Of a stretch of DNA of 64,000 nucleotides, positions 20,993-52,346 are shown one piece after another. The notes below the pieces were generated by a model. The model made no database searches, had not been told where the DNA came from, and worked only from the letters and a program-made list of their open reading frames with translations. The DNA is from Actinomyces johnsonii (lineage in GTDB: Bacteria > Actinomycetota > Actinomycetes > Actinomycetales > Actinomycetaceae), in assembly GCF_006546835.1 (NCBI RefSeq), contig NZ_VICB01000003.1:434001-498000 (forward strand). Reading direction: 5' to 3'. The number at the start of each line of letters is the position of its first letter. Positions within the stretch are counted from its first letter, which is position 1. The position numbers and the translations under genes were made by a program.

Positions 20993-22602
20993 GCCCCTCA
21001 GCCACTGCCCCGATCGTCAACTGGGACGCCCTGACACCGGTGCTCTTCATCCTGGGCGCCGGCGTCCTGGGCGTCCTCGTGGAGGCCTTCATCGCCCGCC
21101 CCGCCCGCCTGGTCATCCAGACCGGGCTGAGTTTCCTGGCCATCCTGGCCTCAGGGGTCTCGCTCTTCCTGCGCTGGGGCGAGGTCAAGGCCGCCGGGGC
21201 CGCTGCCGCGGCCGAGCCCCAGTTCCAGCTGCCCGAGGGTTTCCTCCCGGGCGCTCGCATGTCGGCGGGCTTGACCGAGGACCCCTTCTCCATTGCCGCC
21301 CAGGGCATCCTCCTGGTCATCGGCCTGCTGGCCGTCCTGGTCATGGCCGACCGCACCGCGGTCAACGATGGCGCCTTCGCGGCCCAGGCCGCCGATCGGC
21401 CCGGCAGCGCCGAGGAGACCGAGTCCCTCCTGGCGGGGTGGACCACCACCGAGGTCTTCCCCCTGACCATGTTCTCCCTGGGGGGCATGATGCTCTTCGG
21501 AGCCAGCAGTGATCTCATCACGCTGTTCGTCGTCCTGGAGATGATCTCGCTGCCGTTGTACATTCTGGCGGCCACCGCCCGCCACCGCCGGCTGCTCAGC
21601 CAGGAGGCGGCACTGAAGTACTTCGTACTGGGCGCCTTCGCCTCCGCTTTCCTCCTCATGGGATCGGCCCTGCTCTACGGGGTGGCCGGTGCCGTTGACT
21701 ACCGGAGCATCGGCACTGCCGTGCGCACCGTACAGGGCCAGGACTGGCTCATTCTTGCCGGCCTCATACTGGTGATCGTCGGCCTGCTGTTCAAGGTCGC
21801 GGCCGTGCCCTTCCACGCCTGGAGCCCGGACGTCTACCAGGGCGCCCCCACCCCGGTCACCGGCTTCATGGCCGCCGGGGTCAAGGCCGCGGCCTTCCTG
21901 GCCCTCGTGCGCTTCTACTACGTCATCGCCGGGGCCTTGGGCTGGGACCTGGCACCGGCCCTGTGGGCGGTGGCGGCTCTGACCATGCTCGTGGGCACCG
22001 TCGTCGGCGTGGTGCAGCGCGATGTCAAGCGCATGCTCGCCTACTCCGCCATCGCCCACGCCGGCTTCATGCTCATCGGGATCCTGGCCTACTCCAAGGA
22101 GGCGATCTCCGCGCTTAGCTTCTACGCCCTGACCTACGGGGTTGCCACCGTGGGCGCCTTCGGCATCATCGCTCTGGTGCGTTCTAACCGGGGCGGCTCC
22201 GTGGGCGGGGAGGATGGCGACCTGGATGCCTTCAAGGGCCTGGGGCGACGCAGCCCCTGGGCCGCCGGTGCTATGACCGTCTTCCTGCTGTCCTTTGCGG
22301 GCGTGCCCCTGACGGCCGGCTTCATGGCCAAGTTCCGGCTTTTCGCCACCGGACTGAGCGGCAACGGGGTGCCCTTCGTGATCCTGGCGGTCGTCTGCTC
22401 GGCCGTGACCGCCTTCTTCTACATGCGGCTCATCGTCCTCATGTTCTTCCATGAGCCCGACGGCGAGCGCTCGGTGGTCGTGGCCAGCAACGGGCCGATC
22501 GCCCTGGCGGTCGGCGTTGCGGTCATGGCCACAATCGGCCTGGGGATTCTGCCGCAGGCTGCCTTCGACCTGTTCGACCGTACGGCTATGCTCCTTCCGT
22601 GA
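20989..22602 (+). CDS. nuoN: NADH-quinone oxidoreductase subunit N
   Basis: 537-residue antiporter-like subunit, 14 helices. Signature segments are FVVLEMISLPLYILAA, FKVAAVPFHAWSPDVYQGAPTPVTGFMA and FAGVPLTAGFMAKF. It closes the complex I set, and its stop overlaps the GTG of the polyprenyl synthase gene, so quinone-tail synthesis is co-translated with complex I. Confidence 0.96.
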   Translation: MSPSATAPIVNWDALTPVLFILGAGVLGVLVEAFIARPARLVIQTGLSFLAILASGVSLFLRWGEVKAAGAAAAAEPQFQLPEGFLPGARMSAGLTEDPFSIAAQGILLVIGLLAVLVMADRTAVNDGAFAAQAADRPGSAEETESLLAGWTTTEVFPLTMFSLGGMMLFGASSDLITLFVVLEMISLPLYILAATARHRRLLSQEAALKYFVLGAFASAFLLMGSALLYGVAGAVDYRSIGTAVRTVQGQDWLILAGLILVIVGLLFKVAAVPFHAWSPDVYQGAPTPVTGFMAAGVKAAAFLALVRFYYVIAGALGWDLAPALWAVAALTMLVGTVVGVVQRDVKRMLAYSAIAHAGFMLIGILAYSKEAISALSFYALTYGVATVGAFGIIALVRSNRGGSVGGEDGDLDAFKGLGRRSPWAAGAMTVFLLSFAGVPLTAGFMAKFRLFATGLSGNGVPFVILAVVCSAVTAFFYMRLIVLMFFHEPDGERSVVVASNGPIALAVGVAVMATIGLGILPQAAFDLFDRTAMLLP

Positions 22603-23705
22603 TCGGATCACTGCCGCTGAGCGCCCCCCAGCTGGAGACGCGCATCGTCCCCGCCCTCCAGGCCATCGAGGACCGCCTCATGGAGGTGGTTACCAGTGCC
22701 GACGAGACCATCAACCCGCCGACTTCGCACTTGGCCGAGGCCGGGGGCAAGCGCCTGCGCCCGGTCCTGGCCCTGCTGACCGCCCAGCTCGGAGAACCGT
22801 CCCTGGCGACGGGGGATCAGATCCGCGACGCGGGCGTGGCCGTGGAGCTGACCCACATCGCCACGCTCTACCACGACGACGTCATGGACGAGGCCCCGCT
22901 GCGCCGAGGCGCCCCGAGTGCCCAGACCGTGTGGGGCAACTCCGCCGCCATTCTCACCGGAGACGTCCTAGTCGCCCGCGCCTCCCAACTCGTAGCGGCC
23001 CTGGGACCCGAGGCCGTCATGGCCCACGCCAAGACCTTCGAGCGCCTGTGCATGGGCCAGCTCCACGAGACCCTGCCACGCCCGGCGGGCACCGACCCGG
23101 TGGACCACTACATCCAGGTCCTGGCCGACAAGACTGGCTCCCTCATCGCGGTGTCCGCCCGCTACGGGGCGATGCTCACCAATGCCGGGGCACGAACAGA
23201 ACAGATCGTGGAGGAGTTCGGAGAGAAGATCGGCGTAGCCTTCCAGCTCGCCGACGACGTCATTGACCTCATGAGCGACTCCGCCACCACCGGTAAAACC
23301 CCAGGAACCGATCTGCGCGAGGGCGTGGACACCATGCCGGTCCTGCTCCTGCGCAAGGCCCTAGCGGCCGGGGAGCTCGACGCCGCCGGCCAGGCCATTC
23401 TCTCGCGCCTGTCCAGCGGCGACCTGTCCGATGACGCCTTCCTGGCCGACGTCGTCACCCGCCTACGAGAGCATCCCGTCCTGGCCCGCACCCGCGAGAT
23501 GGCCATGGCGTGGGCCGCTGAAGCGATTGAGGGCCTGGGGGACCTGGAGGAGGCTGTCCTTGACGGCACCCGGCACCGCCTGGCCGAGGCCGGGATCGAG
23601 GGTGAGGCCGCCGCTGCGGCGCTGGCCGACGCGGGCGAGCGGGTGGTGCAGGTGCGTGCCGCCATGGAGGACTTCGCCCGCATCCTCGTGGACCGGGCCG
23701 CCTGA
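22599..23705 (+). CDS. Long-chain trans-polyprenyl diphosphate synthase
   Basis: 368-residue prenyltransferase building the menaquinone side chain from IPP and an allylic primer. Both aspartate-rich motifs are intact: DDVMD at 93-97 (first) and DDVID at 219-223 (second), with GGKRLRP and a GKTPGTDLREG segment between or after them. Product length (hepta- to decaprenyl) cannot be read from sequence by eye. It overlaps nuoN by 4 bp and is followed by an 8-bp stem hairpin, marking the end of the operon. Confidence 0.92.
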   Translation: MIGSLPLSAPQLETRIVPALQAIEDRLMEVVTSADETINPPTSHLAEAGGKRLRPVLALLTAQLGEPSLATGDQIRDAGVAVELTHIATLYHDDVMDEAPLRRGAPSAQTVWGNSAAILTGDVLVARASQLVAALGPEAVMAHAKTFERLCMGQLHETLPRPAGTDPVDHYIQVLADKTGSLIAVSARYGAMLTNAGARTEQIVEEFGEKIGVAFQLADDVIDLMSDSATTGKTPGTDLREGVDTMPVLLLRKALAAGELDAAGQAILSRLSSGDLSDDAFLADVVTRLREHPVLARTREMAMAWAAEAIEGLGDLEEAVLDGTRHRLAEAGIEGEAAAAALADAGERVVQVRAAMEDFARILVDRAA

Positions 23706-23744
23706 AGGGCCGGTCTGAGGACTGAAGAGGTCTCGCAACTACCC

Positions 23745-23774
23745 ACGGCTCCCCACGGAACGACGAGGAGCCGT
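23745..23774 (+). terminator. Hairpin after the nuo-polyprenyl synthase operon
   Basis: ACGGCTCC pairs perfectly with GGAGCCGT across a 14-nt loop, 40 bp after the synthase stop. There is no T-tract, so it is either a GC-type terminator or a transcript-stabilising hairpin. Confidence 0.5.
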
Positions 23775-23867
23775 TGGGGAGAGACGGATAGCTCCCCTGC
23801 GTGAGCGGTGGACCGCAGTGCATAGCGCGCCAGGCACGTGTTCCCGATGCGCCGAAAGGTCCCCGAC

Positions 23868-24145
23868 ATGCCGTCCTCTACGCCGCTGTCGACTAATGCC
23901 TGTGCCCGACTGACCCGTCGCAGTGTGCTGGCCCTGCCTGCACTGACCGGTGCAGGGGTGGTCCTGGCGAGTTGTGGTGTGCTGAAGAAGGGTGGCTCCG
24001 TCTCCTCTGATCGCCGTACTCGCCGATTCCGCCGCAGTCTCCAACGTGCCCACCCGCATGGGCGTCTGGCCGGAGAATATCGGCTGAAGAGAAAGACAGG
24101 GCCAAGGAGCTCCGCTCATATGGTTCCAAGCTCATGATCCTGTAG
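23868..24145 (+). pseudogene. Truncated, frameshifted Tat lipoprotein, inverted relative to the adjacent array
   Basis: From the ATG at 23868 the frame encodes a Tat/lipoprotein signal (LTRRSVLALPALTGAG then LASC as lipobox) and runs into unrelated sequence. A second frame then gives IAVLADSAAV...PTRMGVWPENIG, and a third EEKDRAKELRSYGSKLMIL before a stop. The middle piece ends in the same WP-x-N/G region found just after the linker of the four neighbouring leftward lipoproteins. I read this as the decayed 5' end of a fifth family member on the opposite strand, fused tail-first to the array; the last bases overlap the 3' end of the next gene. A short genuine lipoprotein is the alternative. 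Confidence 0.55.
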
Positions 24146-25655
24146 CGGTTGCTGTAGGTGTATCGGAGGGCGAAGCCGACTGAGAAGGGTATCCGATCCA
24201 TGCATCCGCAGGATAAAAAAGGTGATCAAGTGCGATTCCCCAGGATGATACGGCTATAGAACGGCATATAGTTGCAAGTGAGTAGCTGCCTATATCCTGA
24301 CCAGATGAAAGGGAGGACAACTGAAGAGTATCAGGAATCTTGTCGCCTTTACCTCCTTGCAGTAGTGATGTCGCCATATAAACGACGTCCCCAAAAGTGC
24401 AGGATGCGCCCGGGATCGATCGTTCGTCGGAGCTCCAGGATAAAAATGCAACAGGTGAACCGGGAGGACGTACAGAGAATACAGGCTCTTTGTAGTCGCC
24501 ATATAGAATTATATCATGCTGATCAACATAAATGAGATCCGACATTCCATAGTTTTCAGTTCTCTGCGAACCGCTGCTGATGATGACATCCTCGCCGGTG
24601 ACGATATTCTTTGCATGAAAAACACTCTGCTCGGAATCCTGAGTATTCCTATGGGAGTAAGATATGTCGTGATAATAGAGCCAGTTGTCCTTAACTAGTG
24701 CAGCGAGTTGATCATTATGAGACTCTGTTGTCCCGGTTGCGAGGTATACTATAGCCCTGTTCTCATCTGCATCTTCTGTGGTCAGTGCCTCCCCTATTGT
24801 GGTCATAGTTTGGTATCCGCCGGTGAGTGCCGTGCTCGCATCGAACTGAATGGAAAGATCTGCGGCGCTCAGACGGAATCCGAATCCTCTTGCGTCTGCG
24901 AAATCGCTGTTCTTGTTGCCGGCAATGAGTAGAGAGCTGTGGTCGGCGTTGAATGTGAGAGTGACCCGAAATGAAATGCCAGCGAGATAATCATTGTTAA
25001 CTCTTGTCGAGGCGACAATTGTATGATCGGAAAGCGAAACCTTGATGACGTCGATAGCGCAAACATTGGGAGAGAAGTCCTGCGAATCTCTCCGCTCTTC
25101 CCCCGACTTTCGGTCATGGTAAACGCCGGCCGTCAAATACGCGTAAGACTCGTCGAGAACTGCAGGGCCAACAATAATGCTGAGTTCTGGAACAGTCGCT
25201 GCCGCGGTTGTGGAGGAACTGCTGTCCGCTTTAGGAGTCGTCGAAGGAGCTGGCGAGGAAGCCACTGAACTGATATTCCAGTTCCCCTTGCTATCGGGTG
25301 TGAGCGCCCAAGTCGACGGACCGTTGAGATCGACGACGACGGGGCACCATCCATCTGCGACCGTGTCCACCAACTCGGAGACTTCGAGACCCCCACACAG
25401 ATGCCATTTATGTAGCGCGGTAATTGTCACTCGAGCATTACCCGTGTTGGGCCACAATGCTATATCGGAGAAGGAGGAAGGAGCGGCAGTGTCGTTCGGA
25501 GGCAATGGCCTAGGAATCGGTCCTGGAGTTGGCATCCGTGCGATCGACGGTGTCGGTCCGGGTTTCGGCTTCTTCTCGCAGGAACAGATAAACCCCCCTA
25601 AGGTGACGGCCGCAGAACTAACAAGAAAAGTGCGACGATGCATGCTGAAGTCCAT
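24132..25655 (-). CDS. Tat-type lipoprotein of unknown function, array copy A
   Basis: About 507 residues. The N-terminus MHRRTFLVSSAAVTLGGFICSC has a twin-arginine motif and a lipobox ending at cysteine, so export by Tat and lipid anchoring are predicted. A Pro/Thr linker follows, then a body with CPVVVDL, LDESYAYLTAGVYH, VIKVSLSDH, GFRLSAADLSIQFDA and a closing SSWGIALDHLFYPADAW. No domain of known function was recognised; evenly spaced beta-strand-like segments suggest a propeller-type fold, which is only a guess. It is closest to copy C (shared KPKPGP-x-PSIA linker, TWAL, VIKVSLSD). The alternative start at 25643 lies directly at the twin-arginine motif. Lower GC than flanks. Confidence 0.75.
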   Translation of the reverse strand: MDFSMHRRTFLVSSAAVTLGGFICSCEKKPKPGPTPSIARMPTPGPIPRPLPPNDTAAPSSFSDIALWPNTGNARVTITALHKWHLCGGLEVSELVDTVADGWCPVVVDLNGPSTWALTPDSKGNWNISSVASSPAPSTTPKADSSSSTTAAATVPELSIIVGPAVLDESYAYLTAGVYHDRKSGEERRDSQDFSPNVCAIDVIKVSLSDHTIVASTRVNNDYLAGISFRVTLTFNADHSSLLIAGNKNSDFADARGFGFRLSAADLSIQFDASTALTGGYQTMTTIGEALTTEDADENRAIVYLATGTTESHNDQLAALVKDNWLYYHDISYSHRNTQDSEQSVFHAKNIVTGEDVIISSGSQRTENYGMSDLIYVDQHDIILYGDYKEPVFSVRPPGSPVAFLSWSSDERSIPGASCTFGDVVYMATSLLQGGKGDKIPDTLQLSSLSSGQDIGSYSLATICRSIAVSSWGIALDHLFYPADAWIGYPSQSASPSDTPTATATGS

Positions 25656-25672
25656 TCTATAGGAGTTACCGC

Positions 25673-27118
25673 TTAGGAGGTGGGTGTCGGGCTGCTCGGG
25701 TTTGAAGGGGCTGTCGAAGTAGGAGCGGACGAGGCATCTTCAAGCCAGCTGGTAGCGGAATAAAAATAGTCAGCGACAACGAGCCCCCATGGTGTGATTG
25801 CCCCGTTATCGCCAGAATATGCCGTACCTTGCCGAGCATCAAAGATTGTTTTCCCGGAACTGATGGAAGTGATATCGAACCCACGACTCGACGTGCTACT
25901 AGAAGCGTTTGCTCCGTAAAAGGAGTAAAGAACATCTCCAAAGGTACACGCACCTTTGGGAACTTCATGATTAGTTCCATCCCATCTCAATGCAGCGCTC
26001 GCAGTTCCAGGCGTGCGTACCGCAATAACAGGTGAGTCATGCTGATCTTGCCATGTGATATTCGTCTGTTGTCCTGAGAAGATCCTGGGCCAACCTTTGA
26101 CTTCGTTCTCCCAATCTCCCTCTAAGGAAATCTCCTGCCCTGAGATGACATGTCTAGCTGTTCCGACTAAAGATTCCGAGGAGTTCTTGTAATAGTACCA
26201 GTCGTCCCTCACTATGATTGGCTGGATATCATCCGTACGCTCGTACTTGTTGTTGGTCAAGAATATGATGGCATTGTTTGTCTCCAAAGGCAAGGGGAAG
26301 GTCAAGGCCTGGCCGCAGGGAATGACGACGGAAATGTTCTGTTTGTCGAGAATCGAATGTGCGTCGAACTGGATCGACAGGTCTTCAGTGCTCAGACGAA
26401 GTGCTATGTAATCGGCTGCGGAATTTGTAGAATTATAAGTTGCGCTGCTGTCGCCTGTAAGGATGATGGAGGCCTGATTGTTGGTGAAAGAGAGTTTCAG
26501 GTCCGACATGCTATTCACCTGATAGTGTTCGCTAACCGTTTGAGAATTTTGAATCGACCCGTCCGACAGGCGAATTTTGAGGATGACGATTGGACAAGCG
26601 GTACTGTCAGAATAACTGTTGTTAATAGTGTCCTGTGTGCTGGGCGACGATAGCGTTAAGGCTCCGAGCGTGAGATAGGCGTATTCACTATCGAGAAGAG
26701 CTGGACCGACGAATATAGTAGTCAACGCAACCTTCGGGTCGTCGTCCGTATCGTCGCGGGCAACCATTTCCACTTTTCGGGTGATCCATACACCTTTCTG
26801 GTCCAGAAGAACTGCGTAGGTGGTGAGATTGCTGACGTCAACGACAACGGGACACCTGCCGTTGGTGAAGAGGGTGAGCGCTTCTTTGATCTCCGCTTCG
26901 GCGCACAGGTAGTGATCATGAACGGCCGTGATCGTTGTTCTGGCGTTTATTGTTGGCCAGGTGGGCGTATCTGTGAAGGCAGTTGGAATGGCGTCAGGCG
27001 TTGGGGGCGGCGTGGGTGTGGGGGTAGCGGACGTGTTGGGGCGGCTGTGTTGGCAAGCTACTGCGGTGGGTAGCAAGGTGACTGTTGCTGTGGCGGCTAT
27101 GAAAGTGCGGCGGCGCAT
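25673..27118 (-). CDS. Tat-type lipoprotein of unknown function, array copy B
   Basis: 481 residues from the ATG at 27118, chosen because AGAGGAGC lies 7 nt upstream and the protein then begins at MRRRTFIAATATVTLL with lipobox AVAC. Upstream in-frame codons to 27406 overlap the next gene and look untranslated. The body shares the array motifs: CPVVVDV, TTYAVLLD, VGPALLDSEYAYL, LKIRLSD, LRLSTEDLSIQFDAHS, CTFGDVLYSF and a terminal TPWGLVVADYFYSATSWLED. It is closest to copy D. A Thr/Pro/Ser-rich tail ends the protein. Copy A starts 17 bp after its stop. Function unknown. Confidence 0.75.
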   Translation of the reverse strand: MRRRTFIAATATVTLLPTAVACQHSRPNTSATPTPTPPPTPDAIPTAFTDTPTWPTINARTTITAVHDHYLCAEAEIKEALTLFTNGRCPVVVDVSNLTTYAVLLDQKGVWITRKVEMVARDDTDDDPKVALTTIFVGPALLDSEYAYLTLGALTLSSPSTQDTINNSYSDSTACPIVILKIRLSDGSIQNSQTVSEHYQVNSMSDLKLSFTNNQASIILTGDSSATYNSTNSAADYIALRLSTEDLSIQFDAHSILDKQNISVVIPCGQALTFPLPLETNNAIIFLTNNKYERTDDIQPIIVRDDWYYYKNSSESLVGTARHVISGQEISLEGDWENEVKGWPRIFSGQQTNITWQDQHDSPVIAVRTPGTASAALRWDGTNHEVPKGACTFGDVLYSFYGANASSSTSSRGFDITSISSGKTIFDARQGTAYSGDNGAITPWGLVVADYFYSATSWLEDASSAPTSTAPSNPSSPTPTS

Positions 27119-27165
27119 GGCTGCTCCTCTGCTGCGCTGGAACGGGAACCGGCTGCTGTCTATGG
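27119..27165 (-). repeat. Duplicated 5' leader of lipoprotein copy B
   Basis: The roughly 45 bp before the start of copy B, on the minus strand, match the leader of copy D (30125-30171), with an exact core AGCAGCCGGTTCCCGTTCC and the following CAGCGCAGCA. Both include the ribosome binding site. The 121-bp gap 27119-27239 also contains CCCATT-TCGG similarity further upstream, so promoter and leader were duplicated with the gene. Confidence 0.8.
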
Positions 27166-27239
27166 ATGTCGCCCGATAATGGGAATGGCAATGGGTAATG
27201 CTCCTCAAGGGAGTCTTCAGGCCTGGGGCTGAGCGTTGA

Positions 27240-28688
27240 CTACGAGGGGTGGCCGAACCATGCGTCCGCCGGGAAGAAGAAACCGTCGATAGCAATTCCC
27301 CAGGATGAGACCCCCATAGCGCTGCCCCACGTAGTGATAGGAATGTTGGCCACATCTTGGCCAGACGAAAGAGAAGAAACTTGAAGGTTGCCGACACTTT
27401 TACCATCCGGCGTGTTCGGTGGCGCCATGTAGATGAAGTTGCTGAAGGTGCATGCGGCGCCGGGAATTGTGTGCTCGTTAGAAGTCCAAGACAGAATAGG
27501 AGTGGCTGATCCCGGTTGACTGACAGTAAAGGCGGGCTGCTCTGACATGCCGTAGTAAATTATTTCATGCTGGCCGGTGTAGAGTGGATAAAAAACGTAT
27601 GCAGGGAGAATCTCTTGAGGGTGCTCATTAAGGAGAATGCTGTCCCCGGTGGTCGCATTCAGAACATGAAAAGTTCCTAACTTGGTAGCTTGTGGATTCT
27701 TGTAGGGGTGAGTCTTTTCGTTGTAGTACACCCAATTGTCTTCAACTAGCTCGACCTCAATATCTTGCCGAGTTTCGACTGTACCGTTCCTGAGATAGAC
27801 GATGGTCACGCTCCCGTCATCCTTTTCTGCGACCAATGCTTCTCCTTTTGCGTCAACGCTCTGGTAGGCTTCGGTAAGAATCGTGTTCGCGTCGAACTGA
27901 GTAGAGAGATCGTCTGAGCTTAGGCGAAGCCCGAAACCCTTTGCGCTGGAATCTCGAGGATTCTTGCTTCCTGCGACAAGCAAAGCGTTATGCTCGTCAT
28001 TGAAGGAGAAGGAAATGCTTTCGAAGAACAGGCTGCCGGTCACGTAGTTGTCGGTGATGCGCGCTGATGTGACAATGGCATGGTCAGAGAGTGAGACCTT
28101 GATGACGTCGACAGTGAAAATAGCGGAGCCTGATATAGAGTCCGCTGAAGGGTGACTGTTGTGGTAAACACCGACGACAAAATAGGCGTAGGACTCGTCA
28201 AGAATCGCAGGACCAACAAGAACATCGAGATCCGAGCTGGGAGGTGCGGTGGTAGCCGTTGAGGTGTTGCTGGCTTTTGGCTCCGGTGTTGAACTTGCTG
28301 AAAGATCAACGGCCACAATATTCCAATGTCGTTGATCGTCAGGGATAAGGGCCCATGTTGTTGGACCATGTAGATCAACGATGACCGGGCATGTGCCGCT
28401 GACGACGGTAGCCTGCATTTTTGGCATTCTGACACTGCCACATAAGTGCTGTTTGCGTAGTGCGGTAATCCTCGTACGTAGACCATTGACTCCGGGCCAT
28501 AGTGAAAGCTCTGAGAATGAAGAAGGTGCAGTAGAATCGTTTGGGGGTGATGGTCTTGGTATTGATCCTGGAGTCGGCATCGGTGCAATCGAAGGACTTG
28601 GTCCAGGTTTTGGTTTATCTGAGCAGGCGCTGATTACGCCCGTCATGCCGATGGTTGCTGTAGTGATTAAGAAAGAACGACGTTGCAT
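27240..28688 (-). CDS. Tat-type lipoprotein of unknown function, array copy C
   Basis: 482 residues from the ATG at 28688 (MQRRSFLITTATIGMTGVISAC: twin arginine and lipobox). A GTG at 28724 overlapping the stop of copy D would add 12 residues ahead of the same signal. The body has CPVIVDLHGPTTWALIPD, LVGPAILDESYAYFVVGVYH, VIKVSLSDHAIV, GFGLRLSSDDLSTQFDA, CTFSNFIYMA and SSWGIAIDGFFFPADAW. It pairs with copy A as the second gene of a two-gene unit. It ends without the Thr/Pro tail seen in A and B. Function unknown; predicted surface lipoprotein. Confidence 0.75.
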   Translation of the reverse strand: MQRRSFLITTATIGMTGVISACSDKPKPGPSPSIAPMPTPGSIPRPSPPNDSTAPSSFSELSLWPGVNGLRTRITALRKQHLCGSVRMPKMQATVVSGTCPVIVDLHGPTTWALIPDDQRHWNIVAVDLSASSTPEPKASNTSTATTAPPSSDLDVLVGPAILDESYAYFVVGVYHNSHPSADSISGSAIFTVDVIKVSLSDHAIVTSARITDNYVTGSLFFESISFSFNDEHNALLVAGSKNPRDSSAKGFGLRLSSDDLSTQFDANTILTEAYQSVDAKGEALVAEKDDGSVTIVYLRNGTVETRQDIEVELVEDNWVYYNEKTHPYKNPQATKLGTFHVLNATTGDSILLNEHPQEILPAYVFYPLYTGQHEIIYYGMSEQPAFTVSQPGSATPILSWTSNEHTIPGAACTFSNFIYMAPPNTPDGKSVGNLQVSSLSSGQDVANIPITTWGSAMGVSSWGIAIDGFFFPADAWFGHPS

Positions 28689-28720
28689 GGCGCGGCCTCG
28701 TCTTAATGTGTGCCGACTGT

Positions 28721-30124
28721 TCACGAGCTCGTTGGTGCGGCGGACTTAGAATCTGTCATCCACTCGGTCGTTGGATAGAAGAAACGACCGGTGCTGATTC
28801 CGTACGGTGTTACGAAACTGACGCATGCTTGTTGGAAGGGGGTGAACTGACGGTTATCGAGCTCTTCCCCGGTGTGTAGGTCGACGAGAGTGATCCTCCC
28901 GGACATGTAGCATGCATAGAGGACGTCTCCGTACACCTGGCCCGAGTTTGGAACCGCTCGCTCCGCCGAGTTCCAAGTGAGTGTCGGAGAGGTCGACCCC
29001 GGTGTGCGCACATCGATCTGATTATTCGTGCAGGTGATGATGTAGTCTCCGCTGGTTGCTGTATGTTGCATGTCACTGAGTTCATAAGGGAATCCGGTGA
29101 GAGTGAACTCCTCCCCGGTGTCAACATTGATCATGACAACTGTGCTTCCGGCGGTCGTATATCTTCTTGCATAGAGCCATTTTCTGCATACGTATTTGGG
29201 CGAGTCAGAGACCGTGTGTGAGGCTCCGTCAGTCAGGGTGACAACCGTTCCCGGTTCTGTTGAGCTGCTGTATTTGCTGGTGCATACGGCTTCCCCTCCT
29301 AAGTCGTTGAGATAGGCATACGTGAGTACGGAATGAGCGTCGAACTGAATGGACAGATCTGTTGCGGACAACCGCAAAGCCAGATAAGGGTCGCTGCCGG
29401 TCGTCAACATAAGAGCCGTCCCGTCCGCGGTAAAAAGGAGCCGTCCACTTGGGCTGTCCTGCAGAGCGAATGCACTCGTGGGGAAGCTGCTTGACAGTTG
29501 TACGCTGGCAGTCGCCTTGTAATCGGACAGTTGGATCTTGAGAAGAGACAACGGCATGTTTTCGTCTGACATATTGCTCGAACCGGTTACCCCATCTGTT
29601 TTGCCGACGACGATGTAGGCATGATTGTCGTCAAGAGTAGAAGGTCCGGTGGCCAGGTGGGCGACTGCTCCTACTTTGCTCGTTTCTGTGGCGTTGTTAG
29701 CCGGTGCCGTAGGCTTCACTTCGGCTGCGTGATATCCCCCGGAGACGCCGTCGGGCAGTATTGCGTAGGTTGTGGGACCGGTGAGGTCGACGATGACCGG
29801 GCACATACCGGTCACGTCAGTTTGGCCCGGTAGATAGTGGGCTCCGATCGCACCGATGAGATAACGACCGTGGACATGTAGGATCTGACATCCTTCGCCC
29901 AAGGTTTGATCCTGGTCGCTGATGACTCCCGGTGGGGGCCACAGCGGTTCCGCCCCGAAGACGATGGGGGTGGCTGTGGGGGTCGGTGGAGTGGGAGAAG
30001 CGGGAGCAGCGGCACTCGGGCTCGTGCTATTGGAGACGGTGCTCTTCGGATGTTTGGCTGAACAGCCGTAGAGCCCCGCGCCTGCGGCGGCGCCAAGGGT
30101 GGTGAGGAATGTGCGACGGCGCAT
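28721..30124 (-). CDS. Tat-type lipoprotein of unknown function, array copy D
   Basis: 467 residues from the ATG at 30124, with CAGGAGC upstream and MRRRTFLTTLGAAAGAGLYGC as Tat signal and lipobox. A Ser/Pro/Thr linker leads to LWPPPG, CPVIVDLTGPTTYAILPDG, LLKIQLSD, LRLSATDLSIQFDAHS, VYGDVLYACY and YGISTGRFFYPTTEWM. It is the most diverged copy: the first conserved cysteine lies in GEGCQILHVHG rather than in the LC motif of A-C. It is probably the first gene of the leftward unit. Function unknown. Confidence 0.75.
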   Translation of the reverse strand: MRRRTFLTTLGAAAGAGLYGCSAKHPKSTVSNSTSPSAAAPASPTPPTPTATPIVFGAEPLWPPPGVISDQDQTLGEGCQILHVHGRYLIGAIGAHYLPGQTDVTGMCPVIVDLTGPTTYAILPDGVSGGYHAAEVKPTAPANNATETSKVGAVAHLATGPSTLDDNHAYIVVGKTDGVTGSSNMSDENMPLSLLKIQLSDYKATASVQLSSSFPTSAFALQDSPSGRLLFTADGTALMLTTGSDPYLALRLSATDLSIQFDAHSVLTYAYLNDLGGEAVCTSKYSSSTEPGTVVTLTDGASHTVSDSPKYVCRKWLYARRYTTAGSTVVMINVDTGEEFTLTGFPYELSDMQHTATSGDYIITCTNNQIDVRTPGSTSPTLTWNSAERAVPNSGQVYGDVLYACYMSGRITLVDLHTGEELDNRQFTPFQQACVSFVTPYGISTGRFFYPTTEWMTDSKSAAPTSS

Positions 30125-30171
30125 AGGTGCTCCTGTGCTGCGCTGGAACGGGAACCGGCTGCTTTCGATGG
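30125..30171 (-). repeat. Duplicated 5' leader of lipoprotein copy D
   Basis: This matches the leader of copy B (27119-27165): an identical AGCAGCCGGTTCCCGTTCC core, CAGCGCAGCA and a GGAGC ribosome binding site before an MRRRTF start. It is direct evidence that copies B and D descend from one duplicated unit. Confidence 0.8.
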
Positions 30172-30426
30172 TGGGCTGCGCACCATGCGCCGACAATGGG
30201 GAGTTGTTCCGGATGGGGCGTCTACACCACCTGCACCGCTACTGATGCGCCGGGACGTGACGCGGCTCAAAGCGCTGATGTTGCCCGCGCCCTGGGTGAG
30301 TCCTCCCTGTCGTCCATAGACTGTGCCGCGGTGCCCCGTCGTCGTCCCAAGACCGGACCAACCGGCCGTGATGGCTGCGAGCGCGCGGCACCACGTCCAC
30401 GTCCCCTGAATCAGGAACTAAGAACA
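30172..30426. other. Divergent intergenic region, lipoprotein array / fprA
   Basis: Non-coding stretch between the leftward lipoprotein unit and the rightward reductase gene. A TAGACT hexamer at 30317-30322 could be a -10 for the reductase with a leader of about 100 nt; no -35 match was recognised. GC rises back to chromosomal level across this stretch, so the island boundary is here. Confidence 0.4.
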
Positions 30427-31914
30427 GTGAACGCACGTCCTCTCAATGTCGCCGTCATCGGAGCAGGCCCCGCAGGCATCTACGCCTCGGACATCCTCTC
30501 GAAGTCGGGCATGGAGGTCTGTATCGACCTGTTCGAGCGGCTTCCTGCGCCCTACGGCTTGGTGCGCTACGGCGTCGCCCCCGACCACCCGCGCATTAAA
30601 CAGATCATCGTGGCCCTCTACAAGATCCTCCAGCGCGGGGACATCCGGCTCATCGGCAACGTTGAGGTCGGCCGTGACATCTCGGTGGCCGAGCTCCACG
30701 AGCACTACGACGCCATCGTCTTCTCCACCGGCGCTGACACTGACGCCCCCCTGGACATCCCCGGCGTCGACGCCCCCGAGTGCCACGGCGGCGCCGACTT
30801 CGTCTCCTGGTACGACGGCCACCCCGATCACCCGCGCACCTGGGACCTGAGTGCCAAGGAGGTCGCCGTCATCGGCGTCGGCAACGTGGCCCTGGACATC
30901 GCCCGCGTCCTGGCCAAGCACGCCGACGACCTCATGACCACTGAGATCCCGGCCAACGTCGCCGCCACCCTCCAGCAGTCCCCGGTCACCGACGTGCACG
31001 TCTTCGGGCGCCGCGGCCCCGCCCAGGTGAAGTTCACCCCGCTGGAGCTGCGCGAGCTCGGCAAGCAAGCCGACGTGGACGTCATCGTCGACGAGGAGGA
31101 CTTCGAGTACGACGAGGGCTCGCAGGCGGCCCTGGCCTCCTCCAACCAGCAGCGCCAGGTGGTCAAGGCCCTCGAGGGCTACGCGATGCAGGAACCGGAG
31201 GACCTCACCGCCTCCCACCGCATCCACATCCACCTCTTCTCCGCTCCCCACGAGGTCCTCACCGACGACGACGGCCACGTCGTGGGCCTGCGCACCGAGC
31301 GCACCCGCTTGACCGGCGACGGCAACGTCACCGGTACCGGCGAGTACCGCGACTGGCCCGTCCAGGCGATCTACCGAGCCGTCGGATACGCCTCCAGCGC
31401 CATCGAGGGCCTGCCCTTCGACGCCGAGCGGCACGTCGTCCCCAACGAGGGCGGCCGCGTCCTCGGCGAGGACGGCAAGCCGCTGACCGGCCTGTACGCC
31501 ACCGGATGGATCCGCCGCGGCCCCGTAGGCCTCATCGGCTCCACCAAGTCCGACGCGCAGGAGACCATCACGAACCTCGTGGCCGACGCGAATGCCGGTC
31601 TCCTGCACGCCGAGACCGACGACGAGACCCAGGTCGGCCACGACGCCCTCATCGCCCTGCTGGAGTCCCGCGGCATCCCCTTCACCAACTGGGAGGGCTG
31701 GGAGCTGCTGGACGCCTACGAGCGCGAGCTCGGCGAGGACTACGGTGAGGTTGTCGTCACCGGAGGCGACGCTAAGCCGCGCGAGCGCGTCAAGGTCGTC
31801 TCGCGCGATGCCATGACCGCGATCTCCCGTTCCACCGAGGTTCCCGAGGACCTCATCGGCCAGCCCGAGGCGGACCGCGTCCCCGAGCGGGTCGCCCACC
31901 GCTTGGCTGACTGA
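30427..31914 (+). CDS. Ferredoxin/adrenodoxin-type NADP+ reductase
   Basis: 495-residue FAD- and NADP(H)-dependent reductase of the adrenodoxin-reductase/FprA type. It transfers electrons between NADPH and ferredoxin. Visible: FAD motif VAVIGAGPAGIYASDIL at the N-terminus, PYGLVRYGVAPDHPRIK, NADP motif VAVIGVGNVALDIARVL near residue 150, and the family's GWIRRGPVGLIGSTKSDA near the end. I chose the GTG at 30427 because it begins the conserved domain with AGGAAC upstream; the frame is open further up without homology. A strong hairpin follows. Confidence 0.9.
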   Translation: MNARPLNVAVIGAGPAGIYASDILSKSGMEVCIDLFERLPAPYGLVRYGVAPDHPRIKQIIVALYKILQRGDIRLIGNVEVGRDISVAELHEHYDAIVFSTGADTDAPLDIPGVDAPECHGGADFVSWYDGHPDHPRTWDLSAKEVAVIGVGNVALDIARVLAKHADDLMTTEIPANVAATLQQSPVTDVHVFGRRGPAQVKFTPLELRELGKQADVDVIVDEEDFEYDEGSQAALASSNQQRQVVKALEGYAMQEPEDLTASHRIHIHLFSAPHEVLTDDDGHVVGLRTERTRLTGDGNVTGTGEYRDWPVQAIYRAVGYASSAIEGLPFDAERHVVPNEGGRVLGEDGKPLTGLYATGWIRRGPVGLIGSTKSDAQETITNLVADANAGLLHAETDDETQVGHDALIALLESRGIPFTNWEGWELLDAYERELGEDYGEVVVTGGDAKPRERVKVVSRDAMTAISRSTEVPEDLIGQPEADRVPERVAHRLAD

Positions 31915-51341: not shown

Positions 51342-52346
51342 TCACGAGCCGGCCTCGAAAGCTTCTTGCCAGAACCCGTCGGAGTCCCAGTTGGCTTTCA
51401 TTCCCAGGGCATTCAGTGGGATGCGCTGGTACTTCCCTAAAAGACTGTGCAGTCTCAGAGCCCACGTTGAGTGCGGGCTGATGGTGAACAAGATCGACTG
51501 AAGAGAGACGAGAACAGGGTAGAGCCTCTTTCGTTCCAAGGCTCTTGGGTTGCTGGTATCGAAGACACTGCGTTCGTTGAGCCAGCGGACTGTTCTGCTT
51601 TTTGGGATTACTGGATATACGCCAAGGAATCTGTTCCAGAGGCGTCCGTGATGGGCACAGATGTTGCGCACCCTCACGTAGGTCTTGAGCCAAGATTGCA
51701 GTACCTGGTCAGGGAGATTGAGCTCTCGCGCAATTGTTTTGCGATACTTGGGGGCCAAGCTGGCGTAAAGATGTTGAAGCTCGCCAGCGGTGAGTAGTTC
51801 GATGACTAGCCAGGATGGTGGTGTCGCTGGAGAAGAGTAGGTGTCAAGGTAGTGTGCGAGCGCATCGGGATAGTGGAGGCGATCCACCTGTTCACCGCGA
51901 TCTGAGGGAATGCGCTGCCGTTCGCGTTCTGTGAGGTCTTCGATGCGTTTAATTGTTGTGGAGTATCCTCTGCAATTCTGGTAATTCGAGGTGTTTCGGT
52001 ACCAGAAGGCTTCGCCTTCGCCGTGTGTTGACATTGTGTTGGACAGTGCGGCGCGCACAGCGACCTCGACGCGCTCAAGGGCGTCGATTGTCAGGAGGCG
52101 CAGTTGTCGATCAAATACATAGACGTTGAGAATGTCATCGAAGGTGGTTCCTGGACTGAAGGAGTGGGTGGTTCGATCGGTCTGGAAGGGGATTGTGTAG
52201 GGGGAGAGCCGATAGTATCCGATATGTCGGAGGTATCTGGCGGTGCGGTTCCGGTCCGTGATGGTGAGGCCACGTTCAATGTAGCGCTCAATGAGATCGT
52301 TCTCGTTGAGTGCCGGTTTATCGTAATGTTGGGCCGGAGGGATCAT
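51342..52346 (-). CDS. Abi_2/AbiD-AbiF-type HEPN abortive-infection protein
   Basis: 334 residues. It starts with the family's KPALNENDLIERYIERGL, has LRHIGYYRLSPYTIPF and VFDRQLRLLTIDALERVEVAVRAAL, and near residue 227 the HEPN ribonuclease motif RNICAH (Arg227, His232) in RNICAHHGRLWNR. Family members are phage-defence or growth-arrest ribonucleases; Cas13 nucleases are thought to share ancestry with this group. The gene has visibly lower GC than purE and galE, so it is probably acquired. TACAAT lies 6 nt before the ATG. Directly upstream is a structured, terminator-like element that may be an RNA partner. An in-frame TAA just before the ATG fixes the start. Confidence 0.88.
   Translation of the reverse strand: MIPPAQHYDKPALNENDLIERYIERGLTITDRNRTARYLRHIGYYRLSPYTIPFQTDRTTHSFSPGTTFDDILNVYVFDRQLRLLTIDALERVEVAVRAALSNTMSTHGEGEAFWYRNTSNYQNCRGYSTTIKRIEDLTERERQRIPSDRGEQVDRLHYPDALAHYLDTYSSPATPPSWLVIELLTAGELQHLYASLAPKYRKTIARELNLPDQVLQSWLKTYVRVRNICAHHGRLWNRFLGVYPVIPKSRTVRWLNERSVFDTSNPRALERKRLYPVLVSLQSILFTISPHSTWALRLHSLLGKYQRIPLNALGMKANWDSDGFWQEAFEAGS

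Follow-up and report, generated by a model that had tools for sequence, protein, structure and literature searches.

What are the four lipoprotein genes that lie head to tail in a GC-poor island of Actinomyces johnsonii, and what might their products do at the cell surface? The island is part of a 64,000-nucleotide stretch of DNA (the window; RefSeq assembly GCF_006546835.1, contig NZ_VICB01000003.1, positions 434,001 to 498,000). As a first-pass annotation made from the sequence had described, its genes, named A to D, are paralogues on the minus strand, transcribed in the order D, C, B, A. Relative to A, the identity of the full-length proteins is 33% for B, 48% for C and 30% for D. The same genome carries one more pair, B2 and A2, on contig C1 (107-110 kb), which brings its total to six copies. 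We favor, with a probability of about 55%, the reading that the four genes encode lipid-anchored, non-catalytic, fast-evolving propeller binding proteins at a hot spot for surface-protein genes.

The N-termini of all four proteins match the twin-arginine signal and lipobox that had been assigned to them, with an M-x-R-R start and a cysteine at position 21 (D) or 22 (A, B and C), counted from the methionine of this motif. Conservation was assessed in an alignment of 36 of the 41 family members and pieces collected; it omits two distant members (L091 and L092), a fragment of the broken A. massiliensis gene (L084:5801-6328), L047 and L084:6319-7215, the first three of which are also absent from the phylogenetic tree of 38 described below. 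The methionine, the two arginines and the cysteine are invariant in all 36, so that the proteins carry, at the sequence level, the signal of lipoproteins exported by twin-arginine translocation (Tat). The lipobox of D is atypical (LYGC), and D is among the members not captured by a loose lipobox pattern that matches 32 of the 36. Further columns invariant throughout hold a proline, a tyrosine, a glycine and a tryptophan. This pattern of conserved columns suggests non-catalytic binding rather than catalysis.

None of the four proteins reached the cut-off of any Pfam or NCBIfam model, and the signal models TAT_signal (Pfam) and TIGR01409 (NCBIfam) also scored under theirs. PADLOC gave no match for A to D, a tblastn search with C alone found none in 72,556 plasmid records, and no relatives of C were found in viral contigs. 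In literature searches on Actinomyces lipoproteins, propellers and twin-arginine signals, the titles and the beginnings of the abstracts mention nothing on this family. The earlier statement that no known domain can be recognized holds for the Pfam and NCBIfam libraries, but not for the fold, which is predicted by AlphaFold2 and Foldseek to be a beta-propeller. The AlphaFold2 model of D, built from an alignment of 27 rows, has a mean predicted local distance difference test score (pLDDT) of 80.8 and a predicted template modeling score (pTM) of 0.83, with 31 strands and without any helix as long as four residues; the model of C (pLDDT 83.1, pTM 0.84) has two short helices. A Foldseek search of the PDB with the D model returned 1028 matches at an expectation value (E) of 0.001 or lower. 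BamB was at the top (PDB code 3q7m, E 9.1e-9, probability 1.00), followed by tetrathionate hydrolase, the designed propellers Ika8 and Tako8 (to E 2.3e-7) and chains of larger assemblies. The family profile matched PDB sequences weakly, namely the designed 'Cake' propellers (Cake8, E 1.3e-4) and YncE (E 4.1). These models and searches suggest that the family consists of beta-propellers whose nearest known structure is BamB, and the strand count of the D model points to seven or eight blades.

Strong matches, defined by a best match above 200 bits, were found in 24 of 49 Actinomyces genomes (the lowest best match being 209 bits) and in none of 164 genomes of other genera of the same bacterial family. 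In the other 25 Actinomyces genomes and these 164, the best matches did not exceed 26 bits and lie almost all over the signal peptide; some match at E <= 0.001 exists in 73 of the 213 genomes, of which the 24 were counted as strong. A draw from the phylum (296 genomes including the present one, E <= 1e-8) gave no match in the 295 others, and an earlier search with a four-row profile was positive in 18 of 59 genomes. Copy numbers from the bacterial-family-wide and phylum searches, in which up to seven and up to five candidates per genome were scored, are lower bounds, and the present genome was scored in full (20 candidates, resolving into six copies). By these counts A. gerencseriae and A. glycerinitolerans have at least three copies each and A. 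massiliensis at least six, one of them broken. Distant members occur in two genomes that otherwise have a single strong member, G069 and G004 (L091:4898-6007 and L092:7038-8147; 52-58 bits, with an hhalign probability of 99% for L091), and the family is therefore wider than the strong matches counted. Within these searches it was found only in Actinomyces; it is apparently specific to this genus and has no curated name.

The island fills a gap between a polyprenyl-diphosphate-synthase-like gene and a flavoprotein gene that we call FprA-like (fprA; Table 1). Sixteen of the 24 carriers have a family copy beside the FprA-like gene, toward the prenyl-synthase gene. The size of the gap varies between less than 2 kb and about 9 kb, with additional genes in A. 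denticolens, A. timonensis and similar cases. Of the 34 FprA-like loci that were taken from named contigs, 29 of which are titled as Actinomyces, nine have the family in the gap. Elsewhere the gap is nearly empty, as in A. succiniciruminis (232 bp), or is taken up by other genes, encoding OmpA-domain lipoproteins, an LPXTG protein or AztD-like lipoproteins (365 bits in A. gaoshouyii and 370 bits in A. bowdenii, below the cut-off of 400), or by a DUF222/HNH gene. An intact OmpA-domain lipoprotein gene is present in A. naeslundii (533 aa, L093:7119-8720) and A. gerencseriae (532 aa, L102:2509-4107). The gap is thus a hot spot that is filled differently by species, and many of the fillers are surface proteins. 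Second homes were found in eight of the 24 carriers, behind an SPFH/flotillin-like gene in five genomes and by rimM/trmD in three.

Several observations were made at these loci in passing. Two OmpA-type lipoprotein genes are present in Actinomyces sp. oral taxon 170 (L094), the first judged from its signal region only. Zinc-uptake-like genes just below the cut-offs lie in the gap at L113:3446-6816 (AztD-like and AztC-like) and L115:4452-5954 (AztD-like). The SPFH-linked loci form a conserved home (L042:4578-7535, L043-L045 and L089). At L039:7448-9153 (genome G034), the family gene adjoins a low-GC gene with an Ntox15 domain and a GAD-like/Tdi1 immunity-like gene; the Ntox15 gene was not found in the sister loci L040 and L041.

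Table 1. Features of the island and its surroundings (window positions).
Feature	Position	Strand	Remarks
Gene A	24132-25643 (alternative ATG start at 25655)	minus	gamma-lineage (type-2) Tat lipoprotein of the putative propeller family
Gene B	25673-27118	minus	beta-lineage Tat lipoprotein; closest relative is B2, at the second locus of the same genome
Gene C	27240-28688	minus	gamma-lineage (type-2) Tat lipoprotein, separated by 32 nt from D ahead of it; AlphaFold2 model almost wholly beta
Gene D	28721-30124	minus	alpha-lineage Tat lipoprotein; its counterpart in this gap of A. gerencseriae is gene 1; model all beta
Leader element before B	27092-27165	minus	85% identical to the leader of D over 74 bp; takes in the first codons
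Leader element before D	30098-30171	minus	one of three strong copies in the genome; the others precede B and B2
Polyprenyl-diphosphate-synthase-like gene	22599-23705	plus	left wall of the gap; NCBIfam models of the enzyme class match below cut-offs
FprA-like NAD(P)-binding flavoprotein gene	30436-31914	plus	right wall of the gap; best NCBIfam model 'NAD(P)-binding protein', below cut-off
OmpA-domain Tat lipoprotein gene, 5' remnant	23838-24000	plus	about the first 50 codons
Block without counterpart in A. naeslundii	24000-30253		homology ends at 23999 and restarts at 30254; flanks 23637-23999 (84%) and 30254-30500 (90%) match

The low GC content noted for the island was confirmed, at 0.530 compared with about 68% around it; the lowest value among 230 overlapping stretches of the same length elsewhere in the window is 0.651. 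Low GC as a trait of the whole family was rejected, as it is confined to the six copies of the present genome: their GC content at third codon positions is 0.50-0.63, compared with 0.72-0.96 in the other measured members and pieces. Promoter and terminator patterns within the island were not above those in shuffled sequence. Elsewhere in the window, a second stretch of lower GC (about 0.60, at 51-53 kb) holds an Abi_2 gene resembling phage abortive infection genes (51342-52346, minus strand), which adjoins purE/purK.

The family changes faster than its neighbor. The ratio of nonsynonymous to synonymous substitution rates (dN/dS) is 0.13-0.76 in the 13 of 15 family pairs with a finite dS, compared with 0.03-0.16 in eight pairs of fprA. 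Between D and its A. gerencseriae counterpart, dS is 1.47, against 0.28 for fprA of the same two genomes. Such a high value may mean that the cassette came from elsewhere or that all its sites change faster, and the low GC of the present copies suits the former.

In the favored reading, a Tat-type signal, whose motifs are seen in the sequences, would export a lipid-anchored protein predicted to fold as a beta-propeller. Held outside the membrane on a tether rich in proline, serine and threonine, the propeller would bind a ligand, a glycan or a partner protein without catalysis. Divergence faster than that of the flanking gene would be expected of interaction surfaces or antigens. The junctions suggest that a cassette of D, B and gamma type was gained or exchanged here and that most of the OmpA-domain lipoprotein gene was lost; junctions and unoccupied sites likewise suggest that a block of leader, B and A was also inserted at the 3' end of an AlkZ-like gene (see below).

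A number of observations weigh against this reading or parts of it. Relaxed constraint would likewise raise dN/dS. Near-invariant charged columns might mark a conserved site: an aspartate (position 105 of C) is kept in 34 of the 36 aligned members, a lysine (197) in 32, and Asp 164 and an arginine at column 390 in 30 each. The Foldseek fits are loose, with TMq of 0.19-0.42 and root-mean-square deviations of 7.4-19.5 Å among the 50 rows listed, so that they do not fix the blade number or the nearest superfamily. No integrase or transposase was seen among ten scanned neighbors of B2-A2, and the flanks of the island in the window contain no repeat beyond chance (best 35 bp, 71%, E 0.29). Finally, the present alleles fit a loss in A. 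naeslundii and A. oris as well as a gain here.

How the four genes arose bears on whether they work in pairs. The first-pass annotation had grouped D with B (type 1) and C with A (type 2) by shared motifs, and had proposed that a single unit of leader, type 1 and type 2 was duplicated as a block. Among the four genes alone this grouping holds; in the wider tree, however, D and B do not form one clade. D joins A. gerencseriae gene 1 (support 99/98). B joins B2 (100/99), followed by A. gerencseriae gene 2 (100/99) and three A. massiliensis genes (98/94 and 100/99). A, C and A2 group with A. gerencseriae gene 3 (100/100), and within this lineage A and A2 stand together apart from C (95/77, or 99/87 in a tree without three long or damaged rows). 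A branch with support of 100/100 separates D from 15 rows that contain both the B and the A/C lineages; without the three long or damaged rows this branch is still at 100/100, and the tie between D and A. gerencseriae gene 1 is drawn open. D as sister of B, the grouping of the annotation, was rejected by the approximately unbiased (AU) test (p 1.8e-91), as was a grouping of the D and B lineages chosen after the tree was seen (p 4.9e-58). The motifs shared by D and B (TTYA, LKIxLSD and QFDAHS) are found in other lineages as well, either complete or in part, and therefore look ancestral rather than like the mark of a D-B clade. A tree that placed D with C or B with A, which the annotation had named in advance as contradicting its scheme, was not seen.

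The block duplication stands in part. The leader described as common to D and B is present (Table 1), and a search of the genome found a third strong copy before B2, with the next match at only 29 bits. A unit of leader, B and A has, from the sequences, been copied as a true block, giving B-A and B2-A2. Because D falls outside the B lineage, simple copying of B-A as a block does not account for D-C. From the FprA-like gene, the order of types in A. gerencseriae is D, B, gamma, which we take as the older layout; in the present genome a second gamma gene, C, would have been added behind D, either by copying of a B-gamma unit and loss of its B gene or by copying of a gamma gene alone.

A stricter view, in which type 1 and type 2 form an obligate heteromeric pair and D-C and B-A are two block copies of one unit, is unlikely. 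It accounts for the leader common to D, B and B2, for the B-A/B2-A2 copy, for the single lineage of A and C, and for the position of the four gamma genes in the tree, each separated by 27-32 nt from a D- or B-type gene ahead of it (17 nt for A if it starts at 25655 instead of 25643). This spacing makes co-transcription of a type-2 gene with its upstream partner probable. However, three of the four pairs are in one genome and the four are not independent, and the tree and the AU tests leave D outside the B lineage. Many genomes with one type only, the other outcome that the annotation had named in advance as contradicting its scheme, were indeed seen: with copy numbers as lower bounds, 20 of the 24 carriers have one strong member only, and a gamma gene occurs in just two. 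No gamma gene directly follows the three B-type genes of A. massiliensis, which has no gamma among its members found, nor A. gerencseriae gene 1, nor the genes of one-gene genomes. Pairing is thus apparently not required by the family, and a heteromer is possible.

The second locus suggests how such a block may travel. The B2-A2 pair (L036:6044-11436, on contig C1) lies between the AlkZ-like gene and a gene for an ATP-binding cassette (ABC) transporter, and the last 77 bp of AlkZ recur behind A2 as a direct repeat with 86% identity (L036 10423-10499 and 7148-7224). In genome G023 (L149), the AlkZ and ABC genes are adjacent with one copy of the AlkZ end, which represents an unoccupied site, although the AlkZ gene is itself interrupted there and matches in two pieces. 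The two genes are likewise adjacent, without B2-A2, in G022 and G015. The 16 other relatives examined show no family gene at a distance of up to 1.5 kb from AlkZ, but the ABC gene was likewise not seen in them. It is conceivable, but rather improbable, that a leader followed by two propellers constitutes a mobile surface cassette, which would move as a unit, insert at gene ends while duplicating the end (the 77 bp of AlkZ), overwrite resident surface-lipoprotein genes (the OmpA-domain remnant) and encode a two-propeller receptor with specificity reshuffled between species.

Other roles were considered for the encoded proteins. That they serve as a BamB-like envelope scaffold, docking or assembling cell-wall or membrane machinery through one conserved partner while their sequences are species-specific, is quite improbable. 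BamB is the nearest fold, the predicted propeller has a lipid anchor, and one lineage sits behind the SPFH/flotillin-like gene in five genomes; however, 25 of the 49 Actinomyces genomes have no strong match, few columns beyond structural ones are conserved, which argues against a conserved partner site, and Actinomyces is not known to have an outer membrane. Very unlikely is the view that these are dispensable, drifting genes acquired horizontally and without a selected role in this strain. The AT-rich copies, the high dN/dS, the broken A. massiliensis copy and the copy in G015, whose frame lacks the signal region, would fit drift, but all six copies of the present genome are full-length open frames despite their deep divergence, and dN/dS is below 1 in all 13 pairs with a value. 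A quinoprotein-like redox function tied to the neighboring nuo, prenyl-synthase and FprA-like genes, with Tat export for a bound cofactor, is likewise very unlikely. In its favor are the Tat-type signal, the location next to the FprA-like gene in 16 genomes and a weak similarity to PQQ_2 (E of 0.1 or better in four of 27 members, the lowest being 0.026). Against it, other species fill this gap with OmpA-domain, LPXTG, AztD-like and DUF222/HNH genes, two other sites are used by the family in eight of the 24 genomes, and the body of the protein has no invariant residue of the cofactor-binding type.

The reading as propeller binding proteins assigns to the family, by prediction, an ordinary kind of protein, a lipid-anchored propeller; the family is uncurated, and its hot spot is clear. 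The analysis supplies Actinomyces genes that were left blank by the sequence libraries tried with a predicted fold, a range and a genomic home, and reveals beside the FprA-like gene a hot spot at which the content of surface proteins differs by species. Actinomyces are described as having a role in dental plaque (PMC10696680). Should saliva, partner bacteria or host glycans prove to be what the propellers bind, the proteins would become candidates for determining which species adheres at which site.

Comparison with known systems places the family near, but outside, several described groups. Like BamB, the outer-membrane assembly lipoprotein that gives the best Foldseek matches, its members are lipoproteins with a predicted beta-propeller. 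The BamB rows share only 9-13% identity with D, none of A to D matches PQQ_2 (PF13360), and the present family is found in a Gram-positive host, has a Tat-type signal, is multi-copy and evolves fast. D matches the repeat family DUF6923 (PF21959) over one stretch (E 0.015, 15.6 bits against a cut-off of 27), and the other 26 members scanned do not at E 0.1. The zinc metallochaperone AztD (NF038015) is also a propeller protein, and in A. gaoshouyii and A. bowdenii the gap is filled by AztD-like lipoproteins. NF038015 gave no match to A to D among those listed up to E 10. An origin of the propeller genes as drifted AztD genes was considered but found no support from hhalign, in which the family profile gave probabilities of 7% (39 columns) and 3.5% (52 columns) against these two lipoproteins. 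The OmpA-domain Tat lipoproteins of Actinomyces differ in being encoded on the opposite strand, in their OmpA domain (E 1e-15) and in the mere 12-17 bits they score against the family profile, but they too have a Tat-type signal and a lipobox and occupy the same gap, and a remnant of one lies beside the island in the window.

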